NCBI GenBank assembly: GCA_947474005.1
Contig: CANJHI010000002.1
Location: forward strand, 1 to 64,000
Reading direction: 5' to 3'
DNA length: 64,000 nucleotides
Source of the DNA: Alphaproteobacteria bacterium
GTDB lineage: Bacteria; Pseudomonadota; Alphaproteobacteria; Reyranellales; Reyranellaceae
This document shows, one piece after another, positions 9,441 to 11,756 of the stretch (position 1 is its first letter; every line of letters starts with the position of its first letter). The notes under the pieces are model-generated. The model ran no database searches, was not told the DNA's origin, and was given only the letters and a program-made list of their open reading frames with translations. A program made the position numbers and the translations under genes.

Positions 9441-11756
9441 ATGAACGATGAACACGACGACAAACGCATCGGGCGGTCCGTCCGCCGTCTGGAAGACGCC
9501 CGCTTCCTGCTGGGGCGTGGTCGCTATGTCGAGGACATCGACGCGGGCGGGGCGCTGCACGCCTACGTGCTGCGCTCACCGTATGCCCATGCACTGATCA
9601 AGCGGATCGATGTCGCGCCGGCCGCCGCGCTGGCCGGGGTGCGCCTGGTCGCCACGGCGGCCGATCTGGCGGCGGACGGCCTGGGTCCCTTGCCTTGCCT
9701 GGCGGCGGTGAAGCCGCTGATCATACCGCCGCGCCCGGCGCTGGCGGATGGACGCGTGCGGCACGTCGGCGATCCGGTGGCTTTCGTCGCGGCCGACAGC
9801 TTCGAGGCCGCGCGCGAGGCGGCCGAACTGATCGAGGTTGACTACGAGCCGCTGCCCGCCGTCGTTGACGGCAGGACGGCACTCGCGGACGGCGCACCGG
9901 CGCTGTGGGATCAGGCGCCGGGCAATCTCGCCTTCCATCTCCAGAAGGGCGACCACGCGGCCGTGGCGCAGACAATGAAGGATGCGGCCCACGTCGTCGC
10001 CATCGAGGTCATGAACAACCGTGTCATCGTGGTGCCGCTCGAACCGCGTGCCGGCATCGCCCGCTATGACGCCGCGACCGACACGATGGACCTCGAACTG
10101 ACGGGGCAGGGGCTGCACGGCATCCGCCGCCAGCTCGCCGAGTTCGTCTTCAAGGTGCCGCTCGACCGCATCCAGCTTCATGCACCCGATGTCGGCGGCG
10201 GCTTCGGGATGAAGAACTTCCTCTATCCCGAATGGGTATTGCTGCTGTGGGCGGCGCGCAAGCTCGGCCGGCCGGTGCGCTGGATCGCTGACCGCGCCGA
10301 GGAGTTCGTGTCGGGCGCGCAGGGCCGTGACATCGAGGCCTCGGCGAAGATCGCGCTCGACCCGACGGGTCGCATCCTGGCGCTCGACATCGCCATGGTC
10401 GCCAACCTCGGCGCCTATCTCTCAGGCAACGGACCCGGCGCATCGGCCATCGCCGCTTCGACGGCGCACGGCGGCGTCTACGACATCCCAGCCATCGCTG
10501 TCGACGTGCGCGGTGCCTTCACCAACACCGTGCCGGTCGACGCCTACCGCGGCGCCGGCAAGCCCGAGGCCAACTACATCACCGAGCGGGCGATCGAGGC
10601 GGCGGCGCGCGTGATCGGCCGCGACCCGGCTGACTTGAGGCGGCAGAACCTGATCGCCGCGTTCCCGCACAAGACCGCCATGGGCCTGACGATCGACTCG
10701 GGCGGCTTCGTCGCCAATCTCGATGCCGCCCTGGTGCGCGCCGATACCAAAGGCTTCGAGGCCCGGCGCGCGGCGGCCAAGGCGCGGGGCCGGCTGCTTG
10801 GCATCGGCGTCGGCTGCTTCCTCGAAACCTCGCGCGGGGCGCCCAACGAAGGCGCCGAAGTCCGCTTCGAACCGGACGGCTCGGTGATGATCGCGCTCGG
10901 CACCGAGTCCAACGGCCAGGGCCACGAGACGTCGTTTGCGCAGATCGCCTCCGAGCATCTCGGCCTGCCGATCGGCGCCTTCCGCTATGTGCAGGCCGAT
11001 ACGCGTCAGGTGAAGAGCGGCGCGGGCCATGGCGGCGCGAGGTCGATGCACATGGGCGGTGCCGCGCTGGTGAAGGCGATGGACGCGGCGTTGGCGAAGG
11101 CGCGGCGGCTGGCGGCGCATCTCCTGCAGGCGTCGGGGGATGCTCTGGACTATGACATGGGCCGCTTCACCGTGCGCGGCACCGACCGTGGCATTGATCT
11201 CAAGGCGCTGGCGGAGAGCGCCCAGGATGCTGCGAACCTGCCCGAGGGCATGACGCCGGGACTGGGCGAGCACGTGCTCAACATCACCGACGTGTTCACC
11301 TTCCCGAGCGGCTGTCACGTGGCCGAGGTTGAGATCGATCCCGAGACCGGTAGGTGCGACCTGCTGCGCTACACCGTGGTCGACGACTATGGCCGCCTCA
11401 TCAACCCGATGCTGACCGAGGGCCAGGTGCAGGGCGGTATCGCGCAAGGCATCGGCCAGGCGATGACGGAGCACACCGTCTACGATCCGCAGTCCGGCCA
11501 GCTGCTGAGCGGCTCGCTGATGGACTATGCGCTGCCGCGCGCCGACGACTTTCCCTCATTCGACATCGACCTGATCGAGCGGCCGACCGCGGCCAATCCG
11601 CTGGGCGTCAAGGGCTCGGGGCAGGCGGGCTGTATCGCGGCCCCGCAGACGATCATGGCCGCCATCCTCGATGCGCTCCGGCCTGCTGGCGTCGAGGCGA
11701 TCGACATGCCGGCAACGCCCGAGCGGGTCTGGCAGGCGCTATCCGCCCGCCTCTAA
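9441..11756 (+). CDS. Xanthine dehydrogenase family molybdopterin-binding subunit (CoxL form II-like)
   Basis: Large Mo-pterin subunit, 771 aa, with the usual order. N-terminal aldehyde oxidase/xanthine dehydrogenase a/b hammerhead domain (IGRSVRRLEDARFLLGRG), then the Mo-binding domain with DVGGGFGMK near residue 255, VPVDAYRGAGKPEANY near 370, and GQGHETSFAQ near 495. AYRGAG rather than AYRCSFR makes it form II, so it is not a true CO dehydrogenase. The near-universal catalytic glutamate of the GVKGxGExG motif is glutamine here (GVKGSGQAGC, Gln728). No FAD or 2Fe-2S subunit genes are adjacent. It overlaps the convergent binding-protein gene by 4 nt. Confidence 0.9.
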   Translation: MNDEHDDKRIGRSVRRLEDARFLLGRGRYVEDIDAGGALHAYVLRSPYAHALIKRIDVAPAAALAGVRLVATAADLAADGLGPLPCLAAVKPLIIPPRPALADGRVRHVGDPVAFVAADSFEAAREAAELIEVDYEPLPAVVDGRTALADGAPALWDQAPGNLAFHLQKGDHAAVAQTMKDAAHVVAIEVMNNRVIVVPLEPRAGIARYDAATDTMDLELTGQGLHGIRRQLAEFVFKVPLDRIQLHAPDVGGGFGMKNFLYPEWVLLLWAARKLGRPVRWIADRAEEFVSGAQGRDIEASAKIALDPTGRILALDIAMVANLGAYLSGNGPGASAIAASTAHGGVYDIPAIAVDVRGAFTNTVPVDAYRGAGKPEANYITERAIEAAARVIGRDPADLRRQNLIAAFPHKTAMGLTIDSGGFVANLDAALVRADTKGFEARRAAAKARGRLLGIGVGCFLETSRGAPNEGAEVRFEPDGSVMIALGTESNGQGHETSFAQIASEHLGLPIGAFRYVQADTRQVKSGAGHGGARSMHMGGAALVKAMDAALAKARRLAAHLLQASGDALDYDMGRFTVRGTDRGIDLKALAESAQDAANLPEGMTPGLGEHVLNITDVFTFPSGCHVAEVEIDPETGRCDLLRYTVVDDYGRLINPMLTEGQVQGGIAQGIGQAMTEHTVYDPQSGQLLSGSLMDYALPRADDFPSFDIDLIERPTAANPLGVKGSGQAGCIAAPQTIMAAILDALRPAGVEAIDMPATPERVWQALSARL

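Follow-up and report, generated by a model that had tools for sequence, protein, structure and literature searches.

The molybdopterin-binding large subunit encoded in the window (the whole stretch of 64,000 nucleotides that was analyzed) has a glutamine, Gln728, at the position of the catalytic glutamate of the xanthine oxidase family. In xanthine oxidase and CO dehydrogenase, this loop glutamate is the general base. Across the aligned relatives, Gln728 reads not as a private mutation but as an old, fixed replacement in one clade.

The gene and its active-site loop

The open reading frame starts with ATG and has 771 codons. The gene, its cofactor loops, and the altered loop are located as follows:

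9441–11756, + strand: molybdopterin-binding large subunit, 771 amino acids, with Gln at the catalytic Glu position (open reading frame and translation, Pfam, AlphaFold2 model)
10194–10208, + strand: loop GGGFG, residues 252–256, intact (translation, row comparison)
10542–10559, + strand: loop AYRGAG, residues 368–373, intact (translation, row comparison)
10914–10931, + strand: loop GQGHET, residues 492–497, intact (translation, row comparison)
11604–11633, + strand: C-terminal active-site loop GVKGSGQAGC, residues 722–731 (translation, alignment to solved relatives)
11622–11624, + strand: codon CAG of Gln728 (translation; Gln in 52 of the 57 related loci covering the site)

Gln728 aligns with the Glu of 8uem, 1t3q, 1ffu, 7dqx, and 1n5w, the five chain sequences for which the site was inspected among 40–41 distinct PDB sequences matched, and there is no gap nearby. 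An earlier note on this DNA had placed Gln728 in GVKGSGQAGC and had allowed that the true catalytic Glu might lie elsewhere. The CAG codon does stand opposite the Glu of the solved relatives, and no displaced Glu is seen in the ungapped alignment around the site. CAG is the codon in 69 of the 75 Gln sequences whose tails are distinct, and CAA in the remaining six. In Kdh, the loops homologous to AYRGAG lie about 4 Å from the Mo (PMC8305194, section 2.4).

Family membership and fold

Three Pfam domains match above the Pfam cut-offs: Ald_Xan_dh_C (6e-27), MoCoBD_1 (9.8e-69), and MoCoBD_2 (4.2e-76). The AlphaFold2 model (pLDDT 86.0, pTM 0.87) matches CODH and Qor over nearly the whole length. Four stretches have a pLDDT below 50, and two of them are the loops 252–256 and 368–371, where the low values are probably due to the missing cofactor. 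What characterizes a large subunit of the xanthine oxidase family is present in the three domains, the fold, and the loops GGGFG, AYRG, and GQGHET; what is absent is the catalytic Glu of the C-terminal loop and a partner subunit gene alongside. As read from its sequence, the protein is a homolog of the family large subunit without one defining catalytic residue.

The form II CoxL motif, as given in the literature, is AYRGAGR, and the protein, with AYRGAGK, misses it by one residue. The Cys of the form I CODH loop AYxCSFR (a motif taken from the aligned CODH chains) is absent as well. All three NCBIfam models stay below their curated cut-offs (553.5 vs. 950 bits for CODH_aero_grp5, 491.5 vs. 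991.15 for TIGR02416, and 537.8 vs. 790 for glyceraldDH_alpha). The form II assignment of the earlier note agrees neither with the loop nor with the CODH models, whose scores fall far short. By its motifs and model scores, the protein is neither a form I CODH nor a textbook form II CODH.

Distribution of glutamine and glutamate

The census was made within Pseudomonadota, with plasmid records in addition. Named genomes gave 61 related loci. The site is covered in 57 of them, 52 with Gln and five with Glu, and not in the other four. In the covering loci, those with Gln are at least 60.5% identical to the window protein, and those with Glu (L072, L074, L076, L077, and L080) are 42% to 52% identical. 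The named relatives are mostly Reyranella.

In the class, 11 of 289 genomes matched a degenerate GQAG DNA pattern, and every one of these matches is a relative by alignment, 10 with AYRGAGK and one with AYRGAGR; the GEAG counterpart matched 118 of an equal number of genomes. A slightly wider GQAG pattern matched seven of 398 genomes of the phylum, five of them relatives and all five Alphaproteobacteria. In the window's own family, the wider pattern matched 51 of 61 genomes (47 of 51 inside the genus and four of 10 outside). Beyond the genus, the occurrence of the motif is scattered. These family-level counts are pattern matches; alignment covers the 30 loci fetched from them, all Gln-bearing relatives, and those fetched in other searches. 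Since the pattern is noisy (the reversed control matched two genomes in the class, eight in the phylum, and one in the family), relatives were counted by alignment. L114 and L115 from the phylum search and the second match of G669 (in L166) did not align to the query and were dropped as non-relatives. Eight of the 399 plasmid matches found were examined, and their nine large subunits all have Glu. One genome of the window's genus, G697, holds two distinct Gln-type copies (L147 and L167), ∼62% and 75%–81% identical to that of the window.

Tree, origins, and selection

The alignment has 97 rows including the window (proteins of more than 600 amino acids, identical cores taken once, rows at least 99.5% identical to the window omitted). 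The tree has 59 rows, most rows above 76% identity being thinned to six and the partial rows L004, L067, L068, and L160 left out. In it, the 30 rows with both Gln728 and Lys374 (Gln+Lys rows), all from Alphaproteobacteria, form a single group with support 100/100, which bears out the "distinct clade" that the earlier note had offered as one explanation. The next row outside the group is L072, with Glu and Arg.

Gln occurs also in a distant relative (L154:7694-9979, + strand; 43% identity), where GQAG is accompanied by AYRGAGR and, again, by Ala533. That row lies outside the Gln+Lys group; its branch is long and its local support weak. Monophyly of all 31 Gln rows is just rejected (p-AU 0.0466), so that one origin for all Gln is weakly rejected, L154 being a long branch; its Gln is likely, though not firmly, a second origin. 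Over two origins, the co-variation of Gln728 and Ala533 amounts to two independent pairs, too few for significance.

In 11 comparisons with the window gene, pN/pS ranges from 0.12 (at 94% identity) to 0.49 (at 61%). The Gln-type gene is under selection, as this low level of nonsynonymous change shows.

Positions changed together with Gln728

A position counted as clade-specific if its residue was shared by at least 90% of 24 diverse Gln rows and by no more than 15% of 22 Glu rows (above 40% identity). By this criterion, the Gln+Lys rows differ from the Glu rows at 14 positions: Lys374, Asn378, Phe460, Leu461, Thr463, Arg465, Ala503, Ala533, Met536, His537, Gln563, Thr659, Gln728, and Thr737. 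Four of them are followed below:

10560–10562, + strand: codon of Lys374, right after the AYRGAG loop (Arg in 18 of 22 Glu-type rows)
10833–10835, + strand: codon of Arg465 (in 64 of 64 Gln+Lys rows; Glu-type rows have mostly Gly, Ser, or Ala)
11037–11039, + strand: codon of Ala533 (of the 22 Glu-type rows, 20 have Ser; L154 shares the Ala)
11127–11129, + strand: codon of Gln563, after the model helix 532–562 (21 of the 22 Glu-type rows carry Glu here)

All four residues are kept in each of the 64 Gln+Lys rows, and no reversion of Gln728 to Glu occurs there. Lys374, Ala533, and Gln563 are not exclusive to the clade, each being present in one of the 22 Glu rows; the Glu-type paralog L010 has Lys374. 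Arg465 sits in a loop that matches the substrate-channel loop of Qor, with an insertion in Qor that makes the register uncertain; the Qor loop near G470 lines the substrate channel according to section 2.4 of PMC8305194. Ala533 is two residues past the position aligned with W551 of Kdh, a residue treated in the same source (PMC8305194). Gln563 is probably far from the pocket in the model, being just past the long helix that starts at 532.

No Asp or Glu is among the 14 clade-specific residues, so that a compensating acidic residue is not found there, and the "different base" suggested in the earlier note gets no direct support. The acids common to both groups (e.g., Glu462) remain candidate bases.

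Partner subunits and orphan large subunits

The profile search for Fer2_2 and FAD_binding_5 gave no match on the contig of the window (C2), with eight and six matches, respectively, on other contigs of the genome. The same genome has nine further orphan large subunits, on contigs C1, C32 (two), C33, C46, C70, C110, C124, and C181. All nine have Glu at 728 and no Fer2_2 or FAD_binding_5 match on their contigs. The earlier note had reported the FAD and 2Fe-2S genes as missing, and on C2 they are indeed absent; a tie between that absence and Gln is refuted by the nine Glu orphans. We therefore reject the idea that the orphan status is due to Gln, and the two are not linked.

In the related loci, partners were searched with three 2Fe-2S and two FAD-subunit queries, in flanks of up to 6–10 kb and often less. 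Among the Gln loci examined, 2Fe-2S or FAD genes are seen in L042 and L152 only, each time beside a different large subunit. The Glu orphans L072 and L168 have neither gene in the stretches examined. The closed genome of a relative, G066, has 16 large-subunit genes vs. eight Fer2_2 genes; every Fer2_2 gene lies within ∼3 kb of a large subunit, eight large subunits are orphans (the Gln type included), and no spare Fer2_2 gene is left for them in that genome. The absence of adjacent partner genes is general among large subunits.

Gene neighborhood

The genes around the large subunit, as assigned with Pfam, are:

7516–8271, − strand: glutathione transferase
8364–9422, + strand: Rieske/VanA_C oxygenase, ending 18 bases upstream of the large subunit
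12182–14743, + strand: open reading frame holding an amidase (domain residues 453–842, about 13538–14707)
14740–16008, + strand: second amidase
16156–17397, + strand: hydrolase of the peptidase M20 family

A gene for an MFS transporter is nearby, on the strand opposite to the large subunit, and a solute-binding protein is encoded downstream along with the two amidases and the M20 hydrolase. In 7282–8308 and 11753–17499, the high G+C content keeps long antisense frames open. The frames 7282–8280 (+ strand) and 14683–17499 (− strand) have no Pfam match, and the glutathione transferase, amidase, and M20 genes lie in the frames opposite them. No reductase gene is seen alongside the Rieske oxygenase.

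An adjacent Rieske gene is seen in 16 of the 61 related loci, some of which are cut short upstream, and a role as conserved electron partner is unsupported. Amidase, M20, and solute-binding genes recur across many Reyranella-type loci. In other genera of the family (L162–L165), the Gln gene is followed by genes for HyuA and HyuB (hydantoinase/oxoprolinase); L064 has the same clusters of open reading frames, and so has L156, 5 kb upstream (the Pfam assignment was made on L162, the remaining loci being recognized by their clusters). Other branches have CoA-transferase, M81, HSP70/DnaJ, biotin carboxylase, or Ldh_2 genes as neighbors. The amidase, M20, and HyuA/HyuB neighbors offer a hint of a nitrogen-containing substrate.

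Possible mechanism and alternatives

According to PMC2671166, mouse AOX1 E1265Q has a cofactor content of 60%, against 70% for the wild type, and shows no activity on any aldehyde or purine tested; according to PMC8305194, KdhL E748A is inactive. Because these Glu-to-Gln and Glu-to-Ala variants are inactive, ordinary Glu-assisted hydroxylation is unlikely in the Gln clade, where Gln728 would not act as the usual base; altered chemistry can soundly be inferred from the two dead variants. In the QM/MM model of Kdh set out in PMC8305194, the Mo-OH proton goes to the ring nitrogen of the substrate, and Glu748 accepts a proton from the substrate hydroxyl.

Given a fixed pocket and a gene under selection, we tentatively favor, at somewhat less than even confidence, a working Mo enzyme with substrate-assisted or other proton transfer, whose substrate may be an anionic nitrogen compound. 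The protein would still bind the molybdenum cofactor and would work without Glu-assisted deprotonation of Mo-OH. Hydrogen bonds from Gln728 could hold Mo-OH and the substrate, with the proton passing to another group or to a ring nitrogen or carboxylate of the substrate itself. An anionic substrate would be in keeping with Arg465 and Lys374, and the electrons might, most simply, leave via a 2Fe-2S protein whose gene lies at another site of the genome. Against such a working enzyme, the same QM/MM model has Glu take the substrate proton, with E748A dead (as given in PMC8305194); Lys374, Gln563, and Ala533 each occur once among the Glu-type rows; and the neighbor genes vary widely between branches.

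The same single change kills mouse AOX1 (in the assays of PMC2671166), and no electron-transfer subunit adjoins the gene, as would be expected of a dead paralog acting as a scaffold, carrier, or regulator through binding of the cofactor or of another protein. We consider this unlikely: the cofactor loops and pocket residues are fixed clade-wide, and the Glu-bearing orphans show that absence of adjacent partners is general. Less likely again is a reaction at the Mo site other than hydroxylation (e.g., reduction, hydration, or isomerization), in which a base is not needed. It would fit a pocket that changed along with the lost base, and the absence of an adjacent redox subunit, but no neighbor gene suggests such a reaction, and no precedent was found in the literature examined.

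That the protein is an ordinary hydroxylase tolerating Gln, with the usual mechanism at a lower rate, is less likely still. Its fold and loops are ordinary, but the activity of AOX1 E1265Q was undetectable on any of the substrates tested in PMC2671166, and Gln is kept throughout the clade with no reversion in 64 rows. Post-translational deamidation of Gln728 to Glu would reconcile the Gln with ordinary chemistry; it has no supporting observation and leaves the strict Gln codons (69 CAG, 6 CAA) unexplained if Glu is the working residue, which makes it very improbable. The probability of a sequencing error or a misalignment is negligible: error or chance is ruled out by the Gln common to independent genomes, with both CAG and CAA codons, and misalignment by the ungapped alignments to solved relatives.

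Significance

To our knowledge, the loop Glu is regarded as indispensable in the xanthine oxidase family. Whether the base is always needed can be tested directly on a natural clade that has Gln across several families of Alphaproteobacteria, and the orphan large subunits (eight of 16 in the closed genome G066) raise the question of their electron transfer route. We found no description of the Gln clade in the literature searched, most subscription journals being outside its scope. The Glu-to-Gln swap stopped the activity of the mouse enzyme in the experiments of PMC2671166, so that the Gln proteins probably have a different way of working or another function.

A more complete proposal, rather unlikely as a whole, is that of a clade without the family general base, in which Mo-OH is activated with help from the substrate or the reaction is not a hydroxylation, the pocket is rebuilt for an anionic nitrogen compound, and the electrons leave without the help of a dedicated 2Fe-2S subunit. 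In the operon of the window, the adjacent Rieske oxygenase might consume the released electrons as the second member of a reductase-free pair; this is the least likely part, since only 16 of the 61 related loci have an adjacent Rieske gene.

Comparison with known systems

The CoxL subunit of the aerobic Mo-Cu CO dehydrogenase (8uem, 1n63, 1ffu) is alike in whole-length fold and cofactor loops (TMq 0.93 for 8uem; Z 45.7 and rmsd 2.2 over 758 residues for 1n63_B). Unlike CoxL, the window protein has no Cys in the AYRGAG loop, has Gln for Glu, and has no adjacent CoxS or CoxM. The form II CoxL-like proteins of L001, L169–L171, L173, and L174 (42%–47% identity) share the AYRGAG loop and the domains, but positions 728, 374, and 533 are Glu, Arg, and Ser in them, and their genes adjoin 2Fe-2S and FAD subunit genes, unlike that of the window. 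The Glu-bearing orphans (those on contigs of the window's genome, L072, and L168) fall for the most part in the same region of the tree as the Gln clade, and all have Glu at 728.

Quinoline 2-oxidoreductase (1t3q) and the 6-hydroxypseudooxynicotine dehydrogenase subunit KdhL (7dqx) have the fold of the window protein and are hydroxylases of N-heterocycles, the same kind of substrate as guessed for the Gln clade. Unlike the window protein with its Gln728, both keep the catalytic Glu, which is proven essential in KdhL by the mutant data of PMC8305194.
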